The notes below the pieces were generated by a model. That model ran no database searches, was not told where the DNA came from, and saw only the letters and a list, made by a program, of their open reading frames with translations. This document shows, piece after piece, positions 8,598-30,705 of a stretch of 44,168 nucleotides of DNA (its first letter is position 1; each line of letters begins with the position of its first letter). This stretch comes from Deltaproteobacteria bacterium (GTDB lineage Bacteria; Desulfobacterota; Binatia; UBA9968). The DNA is taken from positions 1 to 44,168 of the forward strand of contig JACPAM010000027.1 in NCBI GenBank assembly GCA_016180805.1, written 5' to 3'. The position numbers were made by a program, and so were the translations under genes.

Positions 8598-8825
8598 CCC
8601 TGATCCGACATTTTTACGGCATGAAATTGCGCTCAGAGCGGCTTGCCGCGCAAACCACGAGCCTATGTTGCTGTGATCGTTAAGTTCACCAATTGTGAGA
8701 AATCTCCGTGCTTGTCAAAACTGCACTCTGCCTTTGAGAAATCTCCGTGCTTGTCAAAACTGCACTCTGCCTTGCGGGACCGGTGTGATCACGATTTCAA
8801 GCCAGTATTTTTTGTCGGATCAGGG
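8598..8825. mobile_element. Small inverted-repeat-bounded element (MITE-like or IS remnant)
   Basis: A perfect 13-bp inverted repeat, CCCTGATCCGACA at 8598-8610 and its complement at 8813-8825, bounds 228 bp. Reading inward from each end, both termini continue with five A/T bases and then TAC. A 4-bp CAAA lies directly outside each end (8594-8597 and 8826-8829) and could be a target duplication. No transposase is inside. Ends starting with CC and a 4-bp duplication resemble the IS1380 family, but this is only a suggestion. Confidence 0.5.
8696..8773. repeat. Perfect 39-bp tandem duplication
   Basis: The unit at 8696-8734 is repeated exactly at 8735-8773. It lies inside the 228-bp inverted-repeat element. 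The unit length is a multiple of three, so a chance open frame (8643-8849) runs through it with a 13-residue repeat, but I see no support for coding. Confidence 0.9.
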
Positions 8826-17297: not shown

Positions 17298-18503
17298 CTA
17301 CCTCCGACCCACCCTGCCAAGGGCATCGTAGAGCGGGATAAAAATCGCCAGCGCCACCGTGAGCACCAGCGCGGCCAGAATGACGATAATGAGCGGCTCC
17401 AGAACCGCAAACATCTTCTTTACGGTGGCCGGGATCTCGCGATCGTAAAATTCCGTCACCTTCTCCAGGGTGCTGTCGACGGTGCCGGTGCTCTCGCCGA
17501 CAAACACCATCCGCACCACCAGAGGCGGGAACGCTCCGGTTTCCTGAAGCGAGCGCCACAGCGAGCCCCCCTGGATGACCTTCTCCCTCGCCTCGCTCAC
17601 CGCTTGGGCGATCACCGCGTTGCCAACCACGTGCGCGGTGATCGAAAGGCTTTGGGTGATGTCCACGCCGGTCTTCAGCAGCAGCCCCAGATGGTGGGCG
17701 AAGCGGGAGAGGCAGATCTTTTCCACCAGGGCGCCGATCACCGGGAGCCTCAGCTTTATCGCATCGATGATCAACCGCCCCCCTTCGTTGGCGCCAAGCA
17801 CCCGCACGAGAACGAACAGACCCGCCATCCCGAGGAGGATCCAAAACCACCCGAAGCGGACGACATCCCCCGCGGCGATGACCGCCCGGGTGACAAAAGG
17901 CAATGGCACCTTGAGGCTGTGAATCACCGGAAGGATACGGGGAAAAACAAAACCCAAAAGGACCCCGATGAGTCCCAGGACCGCCACGAAAACCGTCGCC
18001 GGATAAATCGAAGCCCGGCGGATCTCCGAGGCCAGCGCATTCTGCCATTCCAGAAACTCGACCAGCCGCTGCAGGACCTTGTCCAGGGTCCCGCTGGCCT
18101 CACCTGCACGGGCCATGCTCACGTAAACGTCGCTGAAAATCGCCCGATGGCGCGACAACGCGTCCGAGAGGCTGCTGCCCCCGCTAAGGTCATCGGCGAT
18201 CTCCCGAATGGCTCGCCGCATGCGTTTGTTGGTGGTCTGCTCCTCGCTATCTTCCAGGGCCTGAAGGATCGGGATGCCAGCCCCGATGGAAGTCGCCATG
18301 TGAACGGTGAAAGTGATGAGCTCCCTGACTTTCACCGGCCGGGTGAGGTAGATGGCGTTCCAAGCCCGCTCCGGCCTGGCCGACACCAGATAAAGATCCA
18401 TCCCCCGCAAGGTCATGGCGAGCTGTTCCTCATCGTCAGCGAGCATGGCGCCGTGCACGCTTTGTCCCGCCAAATTCCGTGCTCGATAATTAAACCGCGG
18501 CAT
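17298..18503 (-). CDS. mshG: GspF/MshG/PilC-type inner-membrane platform protein
   Basis: 401 residues with the duplicated T2SSF domain: first half about 67-190 (FTVHMATSIGAGIPILQALE) and second half about 265-390 (FAHHLGLLLKTGVDITQSL). Three hydrophobic segments, near 163-190, 217-237 and 369-396, match the family. It anchors the assembly ATPase and passes force to pilins or pseudopilins. It lies between the ATPase gene and the GspL-like gene. Confidence 0.92.
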   Translation of the reverse strand: MPRFNYRARNLAGQSVHGAMLADDEEQLAMTLRGMDLYLVSARPERAWNAIYLTRPVKVRELITFTVHMATSIGAGIPILQALEDSEEQTTNKRMRRAIREIADDLSGGSSLSDALSRHRAIFSDVYVSMARAGEASGTLDKVLQRLVEFLEWQNALASEIRRASIYPATVFVAVLGLIGVLLGFVFPRILPVIHSLKVPLPFVTRAVIAAGDVVRFGWFWILLGMAGLFVLVRVLGANEGGRLIIDAIKLRLPVIGALVEKICLSRFAHHLGLLLKTGVDITQSLSITAHVVGNAVIAQAVSEAREKVIQGGSLWRSLQETGAFPPLVVRMVFVGESTGTVDSTLEKVTEFYDREIPATVKKMFAVLEPLIIVILAALVLTVALAIFIPLYDALGRVGRR

Positions 18504-18511
18504 CCCCTAGA

Positions 18512-18590
18512 GACTCGCTAATCTTGTCTATTCGGTCTGTTTGGTCATTTCGTCCATTTCGTCGACGGAACAGACGAAAAAGACGAAACG
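18512..18590. repeat. Imperfect palindrome built of 9-bp units
   Basis: In the gap between the platform and ATPase genes, GTC recurs every 8-9 bp on the left (for example TCATTTCGTCCATTTCGTC) and GAC every 8-9 bp on the right, around a central GTCGAC. The whole could fold as a long hairpin with regularly spaced mismatches. It may act as an RNA processing or stability element within the operon. Confidence 0.65.
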
Positions 18591-18614
18591 ACTATTCACC
18601 ATTGACCGATAACC

Positions 18615-23102: not shown

Positions 23103-23270
23103 TCGAAAGCCTATCGGGGGCCGAGTCTTCGGGCCGCGGCCGTCCCCCCCCACCGACGGGAGCGACCGACGGGGAGCGCGAGCGAGGCTGCGGACGTCCG
23201 ATTACAGACGCTACGACTTATGGCACGAACCCATCGGCCGCAGCCGAGAGCGCGCTTCCCGAGGGAGCTT
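23103..23270. repeat. Modular palindromic repeat, copy 3, core inverted relative to its left module
   Basis: The left module (23103-23141) is in the plus orientation and begins TCGAAAGCCTATCGGGGGCC, as in copy 1. The core (23178-23270) is present as the reverse complement of copies 1 and 2. It fills most of the 323-bp gap between pheT and ihfA, inside an operon rather than at a convergent end. The rest of the gap holds a C-run and no open frame I support. Confidence 0.85.
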
Positions 23271-25476: not shown

Positions 25477-26517
25477 CTAGGCGAACTGCCTTAGAAAGCG
25501 CAAATCGTTCTGGAAGAACAGGCGGATGTCTTCAATGCCGTACTTGAGCATCGCGATGCGCTCCACGCCCATGCCGAACGCAAACCCCGAGACCCGGTCG
25601 GGGTCGTACCCGACAAAGCGAAAGACCTCAGGATCGATCATCCCGGCGCCGAGAATCTCGAGCCAGCCCGTTCCCTTACACACGCGACACGCCTGCCGCT
25701 CTTGAGTCATGCCCTTGCCGTCACAGAGGAGGCACTGAATGTCGATCTCGGCGCTGGGCTCGGTAAAAGGGAAAAAACTCGGCCGAAACCGCACTCCGGT
25801 CTCGGGCCGGAAGATCTGGCGCAGGAAGTGGGTAAGCACCCCTTTCAAGTCCGAGAACGCGATCTGGCTATCGACCATGAACCCTTCCACCTGATGGAAC
25901 ATGGGCGAGTGGGTCGCATCGTCGTCATGGCGGTAGACGGCGCCCGGGGCGATGACCTGAAGCGGTGGCTTGCGGGTCTCCATCACGCGAATCTGGACCG
26001 GCGAGGTGTGGGTTCGAAGCAGGCGAGCTTCCGAGACGAACAACGTATCCTGCATGTCCCTGGCCGGATGATCCGGCGGCATGTTGAGGGCCTCGAAATT
26101 ATGATAGTCGTCTTCGATGTCGGGTCCCCGCGCGATTTCAAACCCCATGGCGAGAAAGACATCCGTGATCTCATCCATCACGAGCGTCAAAGGATGGACC
26201 CGGCCCCGCTCCCACCGGCTCCCCGGAAGAGTGATATCGACTGTCTCCGCCTTGAGGCTTCGCTCTTTTTCGCGCTGTCTCAACTCCCTGAGCCGAGACT
26301 CAAGCTTCTCCTCCACGAATCGCCTGAGGTCGTTCAGCGCCTCGCCGAGTCCGGGACGCTCCTCGGGGGAAACTTCCTTGAGACCACGGAACATCAACGT
26401 GAGCTTCCCCTTGCGCCCGAGAAACTCAACCCGCAGGCGCTCGACCTCCTGCTCGGACGCGCCGTCTCCGATCCGATCAAGAAACTCGTTGCGCAGCGTA
26501 TCGAGCGACTCTCTCAT
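25477..26517 (-). CDS. pheS: Phenylalanyl-tRNA synthetase alpha subunit
   Basis: Catalytic alpha subunit, 346 residues. An N-terminal coiled coil (about 1-95) is followed by the class II core with HPLTLVMDEI, GFEIARGPDIEDDYHNFEALN, PVYRHDD-type motif 2 (VYRHDDDATHSPMFHQ) and motif 3 GFAFGMGVERIAML. Four cysteines as two CxxC pairs (CLLC, CRVC) lie before GTGWLEILGAGM, as is common in this subunit. It lies 16 bp after rplT and 16 bp before pheT in the translation operon. Confidence 0.96.
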   Translation of the reverse strand: MRESLDTLRNEFLDRIGDGASEQEVERLRVEFLGRKGKLTLMFRGLKEVSPEERPGLGEALNDLRRFVEEKLESRLRELRQREKERSLKAETVDITLPGSRWERGRVHPLTLVMDEITDVFLAMGFEIARGPDIEDDYHNFEALNMPPDHPARDMQDTLFVSEARLLRTHTSPVQIRVMETRKPPLQVIAPGAVYRHDDDATHSPMFHQVEGFMVDSQIAFSDLKGVLTHFLRQIFRPETGVRFRPSFFPFTEPSAEIDIQCLLCDGKGMTQERQACRVCKGTGWLEILGAGMIDPEVFRFVGYDPDRVSGFAFGMGVERIAMLKYGIEDIRLFFQNDLRFLRQFA

Positions 26518-26533
26518 CGGCGGAACGTGGAGA

Positions 26534-26893
26534 TCACGCCGCTAGATGGGACTTCGCGAGCTCGGCGATCTGCCCGAATGCAGCCGAATCCCAAACCGCG
26601 AGATCCGCCAGGATCTTTCGGTCCAGCTCCACCCCCGCGCGCTTGAGCCCGCTGACCAACTGATTATAGGAAAGCCCGCTGAGACGCGCGGCCGCGCCGA
26701 TCCGGGTTATCCACAGACCGCGGAAAGCCCGCTTCCGCACACGTCGATCCCGGTAGGCAAAGGCGAGCGACCGCTCCACGGTCTCCCGCGCCGAGCGATA
26801 CAGCCTGCCGCGCCCTCCGACATAGCCCTTGGCCATTTTCATAATCTTCTTTTTTCGTCGCCTGGATTTGCTTCCGCCTTTCGCTCGTGGCAC
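26534..26893 (-). CDS. rplT: Ribosomal protein L20
   Basis: 119 residues, the expected length, starting (M)[23 protein letters not shown]. The GTG at 26893 is chosen because an AGGAGA lies seven bases upstream; the open frame extends further but that part is leader. In many bacteria L20 also represses the infC-rpmI-rplT mRNA, so the structured gaps upstream could matter for control. Confidence 0.96.
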
Positions 26894-26916
26894 GTTCGTG
26901 TCTCCTTCCTTTAAAA

Positions 26917-26987
26917 AAGCTATCAGCATTTAGCTGTCAGCCTTCAGCATTGAGATTTCGCTGATTGCTGAGAGCTGACTGCTGGCG
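26917..26987. repeat. Heptamer-iterated imperfect palindrome between rpmI and rplT
   Basis: Left arm units of seven (AGCTATC, AGCATTT, AGCTGTC, AGCCTTC, AGCATTG) and right arm units (GCTGATT, GCTGAGA, GCTGACT, GCTGGCG) pair across a short loop. The 25-nt arms 26924-26948 and 26960-26984 match at 20 positions. It would form a long hairpin in the operon mRNA. Confidence 0.75.
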
Positions 26988-26988
26988 G

Positions 26989-27186
26989 CTATAAATATGG
27001 GACCAGCTTGCGGATCGTCTTGCGCTCGCCGGCCGAAACCACCGTGGGTTGTCTGAGCCGCCTCTTCCGTCTTTTCCCTTTGCCCGAAAGAAGGTGGCTC
27101 TTGAAGCCCCGGGATCTTTTGACCTTTCCTGTGGCCGTTACCTTGAACCGCTTCAAGGCTCCTTTATTGCTCTTCATCTTTGGCAC
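26989..27186 (-). CDS. rpmI: Ribosomal protein L35
   Basis: 65 residues, very basic, with the family pattern (M)PKMKSNKGALKRFKVTATGKVKRSRG and a Lys/Arg-rich end. Length matches the family. The start is a GTG at 27186 with AAAGGAGA seven bases upstream. It lies between infC and rplT in the usual order. Confidence 0.95.
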   Translation of the reverse strand: MPKMKSNKGALKRFKVTATGKVKRSRGFKSHLLSGKGKRRKRRLRQPTVVSAGERKTIRKLVPYL

Positions 27187-27196
27187 GTAAGTCTCC

Positions 27197-27284
27197 TTTC
27201 AAACAGGCAAAAGTCGATAGGCAATAGGCATCAGTTTCTCTCTTCTATTTCCTATTGCCTGTTGCCTTGTGCCTGTTGCCTATT
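27197..27284. repeat. Heptamer-iterated imperfect palindrome between infC and rpmI
   Basis: Left units ACAGGCA, AAAGTCG, ATAGGCA, ATAGGCA are followed after a pyrimidine-rich loop by right units CCTATTG, CCTGTTG, CCTTGTG, CCTGTTG, CCTATTT. The two sides are complementary apart from scattered mismatches. Confidence 0.75.
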
Positions 27285-27803
27285 TCATTTGGGCGTCAGC
27301 AGCATCGCCATATTCCGTCCTTCCAACCTGGGTGCAACATCCAGCTTGGCGATGTCCAGCACCTGGTTGAGCACCCCGTTGAGCATGTGCCTGCCGAGTT
27401 CTGGATGGGTGATCTCCCGCCCGCGGAAAAAGACCGATACCTTGACCCTCTGCCCTCTCTCAATGAAGCGACGGATGTTGCGAACCTTGTAGAGCAGGTC
27501 GTGGGGGTCGGTCCGAGATCCCATCTTGACCTCCTTGACGGCCACGTAGGTCTGTTTCTTCTTCGCACCGTGCGACTTCTTTTTCTGGAGATAGCGGTAT
27601 TTGCCGTAGTCCATGATCCGGCAAACCGGCGGCTGCGCCTCGGGCGCCACCTCCACCAGATCCAGGCCCTGAGTCTCCACGAGTCTCAGTGCTTCATGCA
27701 GCGGCATGATTCCCAACTGATCCCCCTGCGGCCCGATCACCCGAACCTCGCGGGCGCGAATCTGCTGATTGATTCTAGCCTCCTTGCTGGCTATGCTGGC
27801 TAT
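27285..27803 (-). CDS. infC: Translation initiation factor IF-3, probably with a non-AUG start
   Basis: IF-3 binds the 30S subunit and checks start codons. The conserved N-terminus reads INQQIRAREVRVIGPQGDQLGI and the C-terminal domain contains VKEVKMGSRTDPHDLLYKV and FRGREITHPELG. No ATG, GTG or TTG in frame lies upstream of the conserved start. Two rare candidates do: ATA at 27803, six bases after a near-perfect AAGGAGGTG, giving 172 residues, and ATC at 27773, five bases after AAGGAGG, giving 162. I use ATA because of length and the better ribosome-binding site. The GTG at 27740 would cut off conserved residues. Rare starts are a known autocontrol device of infC. Confidence 0.85.
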   Translation of the reverse strand: MASIASKEARINQQIRAREVRVIGPQGDQLGIMPLHEALRLVETQGLDLVEVAPEAQPPVCRIMDYGKYRYLQKKKSHGAKKKQTYVAVKEVKMGSRTDPHDLLYKVRNIRRFIERGQRVKVSVFFRGREITHPELGRHMLNGVLNQVLDIAKLDVAPRLEGRNMAMLLTPK

Positions 27804-27827
27804 AGGCCACCTCCTTTTTAATCGGCT

Positions 27828-29789
27828 TTAATCGGCTGTCCCGGCGGTCGGCTTATCGCCGACCAACTCGCGTGCGACCTCCTCCTCACCCAAAAGCTCG
27901 ATAAAGGCACTCACCGACATCGGCTCGAGGGTTTGGCCGCCCCTTCGGCGGGGTGAGACGGTCTGATTTTTCGTCTCCCGATCTCCGATGACCACCGCGT
28001 AAGGGATCTTGGCCATCTGCGCCTCGCGAATCTTGTAGCCGAGCTTTTCGTTTCGCCCGTCGAGCTCCGCGCGCCAGCCCAGGGCCTGGAGCCGCCGCAG
28101 TACCTTCTCCGCGTAGCCCTTCTGCTCGTCCGTAACGGTCATGAGCCTGACCTGCACCGGCGACAGCCACAACGGGAAATTGCCTGCGTAATGTTCGATG
28201 AGGAAAGCCATCATGCGTTCCATCGTGCTGATAACACCACGGTGGATCATCACCGGGCGCTTACGCTGCCCGTCTTTGTCGACATATTCGAGGCCGAAGC
28301 GCTCCGGGAGATAGAAATCAAGCTGCACCGTCGACAGAGTCTCGCTGTGCCCCAAAACATCGTTTAACTGCACGTCAATCTTCGGACCGTAATAGGCTGC
28401 CTCCCCGGTCGCTTCCTTGTAGGCGATGCCGACCTCGGTCAGAGCCTGGCGCAAGTAACGCTCGGCGTTGTCCCACATGGCATCGTTGTCCACGAATTTA
28501 CTCTTGTCCTTCGGGTCGCGAAGCGAGAGACGGTACCAGTAATCCTTGAATCCAAAATCTCGGTACACCCGTTCAATCAGTCGGAGAACCCCCACGGTTT
28601 CCGATTGAATCTGCTCCGGCAGGCAAAAGATATGCGCGTCATTGAGGGTCATCGCCCTCACCCGCGAAAGCCCCGAAAGCACCCCTGAGCGCTCGTAGCG
28701 GTACATTGTCCCTAATTCTGCGAGGCGCAACGGCAGGTCTCTATAACTGTGGAGGTCGCGCCGGTAGATCATAATATGATGCGGGCAATTCATCGGCCGC
28801 AGGACCAGCTCCTCTTTATCCTCGAAACGCATTGGGGGGTACATATTATCCTTGAAATGATCCCAATGGCCCGATTGCCTGTAGAGATCAGTGCGCGCAA
28901 GTTGAGGCGTATACACATGCTGATAGCCCAGGCTGCGCTCGAGATCGACGATATAGCGCTCCAAGATCGAGCGGACCATCGCCCCTTTCGGGAGCCAAAT
29001 CGGAAGGCCCGGCCCGATGGCCTCCGAGACCATGAAAAGACCCAGCTCTTGGCCGAGCTTTCGGTGATCTCTCTTCTTGGCTTCCTCCAAAAGCCGAAGA
29101 TGCTCGCTGAGCGCCTCCTCGCTGTGCCACGAAGTGCCGTAAATCCGCTGCAGCATCTCGTTGCGCTCGTCGCCCCTCCAATACGCCCCGGCGATCCCGG
29201 TAAGCTTAAAGGCGCGAATGACTCCGGTAGCGGGAACATGCGGCCCGCGGCAAAGATCCACCCAGTCGCCCTGACGGTATAGGGAAACCGTGTCGTCGGG
29301 GATCTCTTCCAAGATGGCCACCTTGTAGCCCTCGCCCAAAGAGCGAAACAGCTCGATCGCCTTCTTTCGCGATATCTCCTCGCGTGTAATTTTCAAATCC
29401 GAAGCTGCCAGATCCCGCATGCGCGCTTCAATCGTTTCGAGCTCCTCAGGCGTGAACGAGGACTCCCGGTTGAAATCATAATAGAAGCCGTCCTCGATCG
29501 TCGGCCCGATGGTCACCTGCGTGCCGGGAAAGAGGCCCTGCACCGCCTGCGCCATCAGGTGAGCCGTCGAGTGGCGCAAAATATCCAGGCCCTCCGGGCT
29601 ATCCATGGGGATCCAGTCCAAAGCACAATCCCTGCGGAGCGGCCGGTCGAGGTCGACCGCGACGCCATCGACTCTGGCCGCGATGATATGGCTATTAAGC
29701 CGCAGGGAAGAAACGATCTCCTGAATTTTCATGCCAGGTGGAATCTCCATCACTTTTCCGCCTGGCAAAGTCACGCGGATTGTGTCCAT
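27828..29789 (-). CDS. thrS: Threonyl-tRNA synthetase
   Basis: 653 residues, the usual length. It has an N-terminal TGS domain (MDTIRVTLPGGKVMEIPPGM), the editing domain with HSTAHLMAQAV, the class II catalytic core with the zinc ligand cysteine in RPMNCPHHIMIY, and the C-terminal anticodon domain. The ATG at 29789 is chosen because the TGS domain starts there; no strong ribosome-binding site is visible and the open frame extends seven codons upstream. First gene of the translation operon; its stop is 24 bp before infC and is followed by a tandem AGCCGATTAA. Confidence 0.96.
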   Translation of the reverse strand: MDTIRVTLPGGKVMEIPPGMKIQEIVSSLRLNSHIIAARVDGVAVDLDRPLRRDCALDWIPMDSPEGLDILRHSTAHLMAQAVQGLFPGTQVTIGPTIEDGFYYDFNRESSFTPEELETIEARMRDLAASDLKITREEISRKKAIELFRSLGEGYKVAILEEIPDDTVSLYRQGDWVDLCRGPHVPATGVIRAFKLTGIAGAYWRGDERNEMLQRIYGTSWHSEEALSEHLRLLEEAKKRDHRKLGQELGLFMVSEAIGPGLPIWLPKGAMVRSILERYIVDLERSLGYQHVYTPQLARTDLYRQSGHWDHFKDNMYPPMRFEDKEELVLRPMNCPHHIMIYRRDLHSYRDLPLRLAELGTMYRYERSGVLSGLSRVRAMTLNDAHIFCLPEQIQSETVGVLRLIERVYRDFGFKDYWYRLSLRDPKDKSKFVDNDAMWDNAERYLRQALTEVGIAYKEATGEAAYYGPKIDVQLNDVLGHSETLSTVQLDFYLPERFGLEYVDKDGQRKRPVMIHRGVISTMERMMAFLIEHYAGNFPLWLSPVQVRLMTVTDEQKGYAEKVLRRLQALGWRAELDGRNEKLGYKIREAQMAKIPYAVVIGDRETKNQTVSPRRRGGQTLEPMSVSAFIELLGEEEVARELVGDKPTAGTAD

Positions 29790-29810
29790 TAACACATCAG
29801 GTTCGGGCAA

Positions 29811-29920
29811 CAGGCATCAGGGATAGTTTCCAGTTTCCAGTTATTCGGGAAAACTTAAAACTCAAAATTCAACACTAAAAACTCTCTCCTGTTGCCTATT
29901 GCCTATTGCCTCCTGCCTTC
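29811..29920. repeat. Heptamer-iterated imperfect palindrome upstream of thrS
   Basis: Left units GGGCAAC, AGGCATC, AGGGATA and right units CTGTTGC, CTATTGC, CTATTGC, CTCCTGC flank a middle with TTTCCAG twice and an A-rich stretch. It lies between tRNA-Val and thrS and shares the period, but not the exact sequence, of the two palindromes downstream in the operon. Confidence 0.7.
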
Positions 29921-29927
29921 ATAAAAA

Positions 29928-30002
29928 TGGTAGGCACGGGCGGGATTGAACCGCCGACCTCTTCCGCGTCAAGGAAGCGCTCTCCCACTGAGCTACGTGC
30001 CT
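29928..30002 (-). tRNA. tRNA-Val (GAC)
   Basis: Cloverleaf on the minus strand: acceptor AGGCACG/CGTGCCT, D arm GCTC/GAGC, anticodon stem CTTCC/GGAAG around TTGACGC (anticodon GAC), T stem GGCGG/CCGCC with loop TTCAATC, discriminator A and encoded CCA at 29928-29930. Confidence 0.96.
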
Positions 30003-30069
30003 ACATGGCTCAGGCAACAGACCAACGTTTTTAGCCTGCCACCTGCCGGCCATTGCCTTTGAAATCTAA

Positions 30070-30092
30070 GGGGGGATTTCAAAAATCCCCCC
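30070..30092. repeat. Perfect 10-bp hairpin after pgsA
   Basis: GGGGGGATTT (30070-30079) and AAATCCCCCC (30083-30092) form a perfect stem with a CAA loop in the gap between pgsA and tRNA-Val. No T run follows on the minus strand, so it could be a processing or stability element rather than a plain terminator. Confidence 0.7.
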
Positions 30093-30138
30093 TGGGAACG
30101 CAAGGTTCTGATTTTCCTACCAATTTTTATCACGCCTG

Positions 30139-30705
30139 TCAACTTAACCGGGGCAGGGAGTGAGCGCGGTTCTGAAGCCAGACCAATCCCCGATGGATGT
30201 ACTGGAAGCCCGACACCGCTGTTGTCAGCGCCGTGACAATGATCAGGAGTGCGCGGAGCGATGCGGGGAGAAGCGCCGCGTCGTAGAGGGAAAGTAGCGC
30301 AACACCGACGGTCAAAAGCTGCAGCAACGTGTTCGTCTTGCCGATGGCGGTGGGCTGAATCTTCAGGCGCTCGGCCACGAGGAAATAGATCACCCCGTAG
30401 CCGAACAGAATGATAATATCCCGGCTTAACACGAGGACCACCAACCACGAGGGCAGGCCACCGATCAGGCCGAGCATGATGAAGGAGCTCATGACCAGCA
30501 GTTTGTCGGCCACCGGGTCGAGGTAGGCACCCAAGGGAGTCTGTTGGCCGGTGATGCGCGCTATGGCGCCGTCCGCGGCGTCCGTCAAGCCGCCGAGAAT
30601 CAAGACCGCCAGGGCCTCCAGATAAAGGCTCGAAGAGAGCAGGATCAGAAAAACCGGCACCGTAAGGATGCGGAAGAGCGTCAGGGAATTGGGAAGGTTC
30701 AGCAT
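30139..30705 (-). CDS. pgsA: CDP-diacylglycerol-glycerol-3-phosphate 3-phosphatidyltransferase
   Basis: Inner-membrane enzyme that makes phosphatidylglycerophosphate. The 188 residues begin MLNLPNSLTLFRILTVPVFL and contain the full CDP-alcohol phosphotransferase motif: Asp45-Gly46-x2-Ala49-Arg50-x8-Gly59-x3-Asp63-x3-Asp67. Several hydrophobic helices follow. The start lies 9 bp after hflX, so the two genes are co-transcribed. Confidence 0.93.
   Translation of the reverse strand: MLNLPNSLTLFRILTVPVFLILLSSSLYLEALAVLILGGLTDAADGAIARITGQQTPLGAYLDPVADKLLVMSSFIMLGLIGGLPSWLVVLVLSRDIIILFGYGVIYFLVAERLKIQPTAIGKTNTLLQLLTVGVALLSLYDAALLPASLRALLIIVTALTTAVSGFQYIHRGLVWLQNRAHSLPRLS

Follow-up and report, generated by a model that had tools for sequence, protein, structure and literature searches.

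Inverted arrays of 7-nucleotide core-and-spacer units in intergenic regions of a bacterial genome, its relatives and predicted viral contigs

Inverted arrays built from 7-nucleotide units occupy the gaps of a translation operon, and they raise the question of whether they are products of a mutational process, RNA structures selected in this operon, or dispersed elements. A preliminary description of the locus proposed either a process that makes period-7 palindromes, perhaps through repair slippage, or RNA structures under selection in a single operon. The window analyzed here (the whole stretch of 44,168 nucleotides) is contig G000:C301, one of the 339 that make up a 4.46-Mb genome. On its minus strand, ARAGORN and NCBIfam models give the gene order tRNA-Val, thrS, infC, rpmI, rplT, pheS, pheT. 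The observation extends far beyond this operon.

All three gaps of the thrS-infC-rpmI-rplT operon hold inverted pairs of 7-nucleotide units (Table 1). The paired heptamer sets originally described were confirmed by the sequence, by TRF rows and by a symmetry search, and the coordinates first assigned to the gaps proved correct to within about 20 nt. The further statement that the unit differs by gap while the period stays constant holds for the period, which is 7 throughout, but gaps 2 and 3 share TGCCTNN. In gap 1, the arms are separated by a loop, the inverted repeat at 26924-26984 was recovered by symmetry alone, and the element ends before the rplT ribosome-binding site. The rplT start in the ORF list, 26929, falls within this array; as read from the sequence, the true start is likely the GTG at 26893, behind AAGGAAGGAG, and the NCBIfam model alignment begins at residue 15. 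The 5' end of infC may extend farther upstream. Fold z-scores against mononucleotide shuffles were -4.6, -5.0 and -4.6 for gaps 1, 2 and 3. A search of positions 26000-30200 with Rfam returned nothing but the tRNA at gathering score, with no ribosomal protein leader or other curated RNA family.

Table 1. Genes, gaps and array arms of the operon (positions in the window).
Feature	Position	Strand	Units, basis and remarks
rplT	26534-26893	-	NCBIfam TIGR01032; start re-read from the sequence at GTG 26893
Gap 1	26894-26988		rpmI stop to rplT start; GCTGANN
Gap 1 left arm AGCTATCAGCATTTAGCTGTCAGCCTTCAGC	about 26918-26948		Reverse-complement heptamers NNTCAGC; sequence
Gap 1 right arm GCTGATTGCTGAGAGCTGACTGCTGGCGGCT	about 26960-26990		GCTGANN heptamers; overlaps rpmI stop codon
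rpmI	26989-27186	-	NCBIfam TIGR00001 (scanned as 26990-27186); stop read from sequence
Gap 2	27187-27284		infC-rpmI; AGGCNNN / TGCCTNN arms
Gap 2 left arm	27201-27233		AGGCNNN heptamers; TRF row 27205-27230, period 7; symmetry search
Gap 2 right arm	27251-27284		TGCCTNN heptamers, last base at infC stop codon; TRF row 27245-27284, period 7
infC	27285-27740	-	NCBIfam TIGR00168
thrS	27828-29789	-	NCBIfam TIGR00418; likely ATG at 29789, start judged from sequence
Gap 3	29790-29927		tRNA-Val to thrS; outer TGCCT pair with inner AGTTTCC / AAAACTN pair nested
Gap 3 outer left arm	29805-29822		Reverse complement of TGCCTNN
Gap 3 inner nested pair	29823-29884		AGTTTCC arm 29825-29842, AAAACTN arm 29850-29884; TRF rows, arm pairing
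Gap 3 outer right arm	29886-29918		TGCCTNN; TRF row 29888-29911
tRNA-Val(GAC)	29928-30002	-	ARAGORN, Rfam RF00005; upstream of gap 3

The excess of period 7 that the preliminary description led one to look for in other gaps is present. Within the window, lags 7 and 14 exceeded the threshold in gaps 2 and 3 and lag 9 did so elsewhere; no other lag did. An initial 220-kb sample of the genome gave 10 arrays at lag 7, none at lags 4-6 and 8-13, and two at lag 14. Of the 384 gaps in 672 kb sampled, 25 passed the score at lag 7 and 20 at lag 14, compared with 0 to 7 at the other lags from 4 to 16. Inverted repeats chosen by symmetry alone (97 intergenic, 65 coding) had a lag-7 identity of 0.396 in intergenic DNA versus 0.261 in coding DNA, and a lag-14 identity of 0.404 versus 0.270. 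Lag 6 was also elevated in the intergenic set (0.384), a signal that probably comes from a separate dispersed palindrome, GGGGAGCGCGAGCGAGGCTGCGGACG. One copy of that palindrome, with a 38-bp conserved loop, lies at window positions 23170-23261; many others are found in this genome, and it also occurs in genome G002.

With up to two mismatches, TGCCTRTTGCCTRTTGCC has 97 matches genome-wide and none backwards; three successive GCTGANN units have 32 matches in this genome, again with none backwards. The 5-mers most often repeated at spacing 7 in gaps are TTTGC, GCTGA, TGCCT, TTGAC, TTGAA and AAACT, together with their overlapping frames. Genome-wide matches and the symmetry search rule out a restriction of the arrays to the translation operon, and the words "within one operon" have to be abandoned, given elements across the genome, in many relatives and in phage contigs. 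Two other repeats in the window are a 39-bp unit in two exact tandem copies (8696-8773) and a period-9 palindrome, CATTTCGTC / GACGAAACA (18524-18592), in place of which the orthologous gap of G002 has a nested TTGAC and GTTACT array.

The unit consists of a 5-nucleotide core and a free 2-nucleotide spacer (GCTGANN, TGCCTNN, TTTGCAN and others), and the arms have a fixed polarity, with the reverse complement on the left and the core on the right. For six words, we counted 29 pairs in this '-+' arrangement, none in the '+-' arrangement and 4 in the same direction, with 122 runs unpaired. When all loci were compared, a partner arm with a core match of at least 0.8 was found for 30 of 61 GCTGA anchors (mirror control, 2 of 59) and for 24 of 77 TGCCT anchors (mirror control, 2 of 77). 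With the register set by the cores alone, spacers facing each other across the arms were complementary in 14 of 74 cases for GCTGA and in 40 of 100 for TGCCT, with many palindromes counted from both strands; the latter fraction slightly exceeds the roughly 0.33 that a hand estimate gives for the skewed composition of the spacers. Maintenance of a perfect stem by compensatory change is ruled out by spacer complementarity at or near background.

Genome G019 has 439 matches to three successive GCTGANN units and contains a miniature inverted-repeat transposable element (MITE) of about 150 bp, in at least 40 copies, with GCTGA arms inside it. Across 30 aligned copies, pairwise diversity averages 0.044 for cores, 0.374 for spacers, 0.128 for the loop and 0.710 for the flank. 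Cores that pair while spacers do not, and spacers that are roughly eightfold more variable, argue against both plain slippage and selection for a perfect stem. Neighboring spacers at the loci counted above for polarity were identical in 13 of 63 cases for GCTGA (5.2 expected) and in 30 of 83 for TGCCT (9.2 expected), so that slippage contributes somewhat to spacer identity but is not the rule. Slippage products consist of near-identical neighboring units, and the period-7 arrays do not have this composition. In viral contigs, adjacent spacers were identical in 254 of 772 cases for period-7 GCTGA among the matches listed and in 315 of 420 for period-8 GCTGA. Ordinary exact repeats exist besides the variable-spacer kind: genome G163 has 18 matches to three GCTGANN units, in which every unit is GCTGAAG.

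These data bear on the idea of a process generating period-7 palindromes. In its local form, slippage with a preferred 7-nucleotide step, combined with strand switching, would build inverted arrays in place with no recognized factor. Its advocates could point to the very many words in use, including exact arrays of TTTCAAA and TTTCGAA, to length changes of 7 nucleotides between sisters and between MITE copies, and to a related phenomenon, with several other words, in Chloroflexota and Omnitrophota loci. From earlier work, PMC4679880 reports the heptanucleotide as the commonest long simple repeat in most genomes, and it cites a guess by Mrazek that the step reflects a 7-nucleotide polymerase footprint. 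Slippage does not explain words common to genomes and phages, a fixed polarity or a position-specific constraint, however, and it is the period-8 GCTGA arrays, not the period-7 arrays, that look like its products. We therefore regard a mutational generator as unlikely. Plain slippage as the sole cause is ruled out by the core and spacer diversity in G019 and by differing neighboring spacers; as the process first suggested for this locus, it is also disfavored by words that distant genomes share. As a separate observation, one 10-kb Candidatus Aquidulcis locus (L141) has five period-7 arrays, built from different words, in a stretch of about 1 kb.

The arrays are biased in their position relative to genes. 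Among gaps of 30-1000 bp, an array score of at least 11 was reached by 24 of 256 co-directional gaps, 0 of 68 divergent gaps and 1 of 53 convergent gaps (Fisher 7e-4). At a score of 9, the counts were 30 co-directional, 0 divergent and 5 of 53 convergent (p 0.02); both cut-offs were picked after looking at the data. In 19 co-directional gaps of 30-260 bp, the median distance is 4 nt from the stop codon to the array and 17 nt from the array to the next start. Genes of the sampled genome were called with our own hexamer caller, which missed rpmI. At L159:12229-12310, a palindrome lies immediately before a prepilin-like GFTLVE motif, with different words there in G002 and G001, and the arrays at this site may encode part of the leader.

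Such positions are what one would expect of a selected intercistronic signal, the main rival to the explanation that we prefer. Between genes transcribed together, the palindrome would work as part of the mRNA or as an iteron site bound by a protein, serving for example translation start, coupling or processing; drift or replacement of the word would be tolerated provided that the architecture was kept. Confinement to co-directional gaps and the tight placement between stop and start codons speak for it. So does a comparison in place with G002, where three arms differ at 3 of 61 core positions and 5 of 22 spacer positions (p 0.03; the left arm of gap 2 and one lost unit were omitted). Against it stand the non-complementary spacers, which leave no sign of compensatory stem upkeep, and the several words within one operon. 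The convergent deficit taken alone is not significant (p 0.09), and convergent gaps do score at the lower cut-off, which also weakens the case. For the selected RNA structure proposed at the outset, the location fits, but non-complementary spacers and word swaps disfavor a conserved structure.

Comparison of the same gaps in sister genomes, as the preliminary description had suggested, revealed turnover, and sequences are not conserved at a site. The word in the rpmI-rplT gap is GCTGA in the window, L062, L065 and L069, ACTC in L064 and L068, CTCAG in L063, and GCCT in L066 and L067; L070 has only a degenerate palindrome there. At a score of at least 10, a period-7 element is present in this gap in eight of nine genomes scored, with at least four words, which favors a selected signal. 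L066 and L069 are 91% identical across about 2.5 kb, yet they carry GCCT and CAGC words, respectively, in this gap. The infC-rpmI gap lacks an element in L063, L065 and L070, where the stop-to-Shine-Dalgarno spacer is short; it contains one arm in L066, a GCTGA pair in L067, TTTGCA in L068 and TGCCT-type pairs in the remainder. The element is also missing in a sister at gap 3 and at two L044 sites. The three relatives lacking the infC-rpmI element, and the two empty L044 sites, count against a selected signal.

Word replacement is found at other loci as well. At L159:4150, 5070, 10920 and 12225 and at L143:12725, G002 has a different word between flanks of about 72-91% identity, depending on the side; in G001, other sites also differ in word, some with exact flanks on either side. 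Sisters held an element in 9 of 15 gap pairs in which this genome has one, versus 4 of 16 in which it was scored absent (p 0.07, with one of the 32 gap pairs omitted for its intermediate score); in three of these four "absent" cases, the gap of this genome has, by eye, a palindrome of other or degenerate period. Site retention is therefore suggestive. Nested palindromes occur in gap 3 of the window and in the G002 site orthologous to 18459-18614, where TTGAC surrounds GTTACT, and they suggest that new elements enter old loops. At two G002 loci (L245 and L310), a larger element, AGGTTGTGAAAAAAT...ATTTTTTCACAACCT, is inserted within CTCAG/GCTGA-type arms, with the palindromes as insertion targets.

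The distribution over genomes is patchy. Three GCTGANN units in succession were found in 58 of 198 genomes of a phylum sample and three TGCCTNN units in 23 of 198; backwards GCTGANN matches are numerous in some of these genomes (for example, 69 in G164, 44 in G184 and 26 in G160). Among the matches listed for viral contigs, GCTGA gave 53 '-+' versus 2 '+-' pairs, and TGCCT gave 39 versus 0. Contrary to expectation, the backwards word AGTCG, chosen to serve as a control, had matches in 80 viral stretches and forms a polar palindrome family of its own (10 '+-', 0 '-+'). For TTGAC, the polarity in viral contigs is mostly opposite (10 to 3) to that of the two TTGAC cases in the first polarity count, and period-8 GCTGA patterns, in 94 viral stretches, gave no '-+' pairs.

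These viral contigs are IMG/VR predictions, and ten proteins of L426, L427 and L435 were checked against protein families, eight of which match PHROG head or packaging families. L427 has genes for terminase, portal, head morphogenesis, protease and capsid, which mark it as a tailed phage. Its GCTGA palindromes lie directly behind the stop codon in five of six gaps examined between nine ORFs chosen by hand out of 14, and the sixth gap measures 12 bp. An element at nearly every gene boundary of a phage again favors a selected signal. Cluster K mycobacteriophages carry start-associated sequences and extended inverted forms, which are repeated intergenic elements at many phage gene starts; they are a phage-specific motif and are not known to be 7-nucleotide iterons.

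Mobility is indicated by the G019 element, which has the terminal inverted repeats of a MITE and target-site duplications; for the 22 of 30 copies that were scored, the mean end repeat is 3.41 nt, versus a maximum of 2.95 nt among 2000 shuffles. No consistent duplication was found at the window elements. The 601-bp gap region has matches of just 30-56 bp elsewhere in the genome, so gaps 1 and 2 give no sign of recent copy-and-paste from a master, and copies sharing a word in this genome generally have no common loops or spacers. An ATTTTAG element at L159:12231-12295 has copies of 83-97% identity in G002.

One candidate for the machinery is a Y1 transposase (RAYT) serving the arrays as a REP/REPIN system. 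A Y1_Tnp match is present in 54 of 58 array-bearing genomes versus 87 of 140 genomes without arrays (Fisher 4e-6), a significant co-occurrence that may nevertheless reflect mobile-DNA-rich genomes generally. Four array genomes (G034, G046, G137 and G139) have no Y1 match. REP/REPIN elements flank or accompany the Y1 gene, and in five Y1 neighborhoods examined (four of the ten in this genome and one in G019), we found no period-7 arrays. Service by a Y1 transposase is accordingly improbable. It is far harder still to credit templated synthesis, in which a reverse transcriptase of the DRT10 or telomerase type would add heptamers to both 3' ends at breaks, with arrays converging on the center. 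Converging 3' additions would leave the inverted polarity, and DRT10 produces tandem-repeat cDNA by template re-setting, with a 9-nucleotide period in one system and varying lengths, according to the portions of PMC12632851 that treat this product. A fixed template would not give free spacers, though, and breaks are not expected only in stop-to-start spacers.

Shared words, fixed polarity, constraint on the core only, empty short gaps and a MITE with target duplications together favor dispersed palindromes recognized through their cores. Our tentative preference, held at somewhat less than even confidence, is therefore for REP/MITE-like palindromes with iteron arms, spread by a putative machinery. 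Each core word would define a separate family, and the elements would be miniature non-autonomous repeats that enter the short stretch separating the stop codon of one gene from the ribosome-binding site of the next in the same direction. Elements of this genome may also have spread by insertion, with a trans-acting factor presumably reading the core words. To judge from the nested cases, new palindromes would tend to arise in loops of old ones, whose arms would then decay, resulting in replacement of a word in place. Core constraint in the comparison with G002 is unexpected for dead insertions and counts against a mobile origin. The unshared loops of the gap 1 and gap 2 copies, the co-directional confinement and the phage pattern hold our preference for mobile palindromes to this level; the selected signal is rather unlikely, yet a serious competitor. 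We also entertain, as a speculation with a small chance of being correct, a contagious gene-boundary code common to bacteria and phages, in which palindromic 7-nucleotide iterons would mark the stop-to-start space, each word would be read by a factor of its own, and words would compete for fixed boundaries and displace each other, so that the spelling changes and the mark stays.

Among known systems, the nearest in form are the class 3 predicted global regulator sites of Geobacter metallireducens (PMC2700814). As there described, these are multicopy tandem heptamers (MTYCTGA, with a CTGA core) in strand-switching pairs, known from one genome and 16 sequences, for which regulator binding was suggested. 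The GCTGANN pairs share the opposite-strand tandem heptamers and CTGA-type core, with the Geobacter sites compared by description. Unlike the arrays here, the class 3 sites are presented, in the sections of PMC2700814 that define them, without a core and spacer split, a stop-to-Shine-Dalgarno position, word replacement or phages. TAACTGA repeats of Beggiatoaceae, Cyanobacteria and Bacteroidetes are likewise intergenic heptamers ending in CTGA, present in ribosomal protein operons and patchy across phyla, with a suggested role in translation; they differ in being direct repeats, most of which point the same way, towards the start codon, with 1 inverted case of 170, in the relevant passages of PMC4679880. 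The arrays here are inverted pairs with variable spacers, not direct units of one orientation abutting start codons. The GGGAATC and GGGGA(C/T)T heptamers of Xanthomonas and Nostoc differ in being G-rich and G-quadruplex-forming, as outlined in PMC4692102. REP/REPIN elements with RAYT are similar as dispersed intergenic palindromes with several families per genome; the account of them in PMC6006769, in the parts that describe their structure, reports no 7-nucleotide iteration, and RAYT adjacency was not found here. Searches of the open-access literature found no core and spacer unit, site-wise word replacement or phage cases of this kind, and among the papers listed for literal repeat strings, none concerns such repeats by its title.

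As passages of PMC4692102 and PMC4679880 relate, bacterial gaps have long been known to be overly rich in 7-nucleotide repeats, with no cause assigned. This puzzle gains a testable structure from the core and spacer unit, its polarity, its placement between the stop and start codons of co-directional genes, word swapping at one site and the occurrence in phages. These features imply that the cores are recognized by something, and that turnover is quick enough to follow between close strains.
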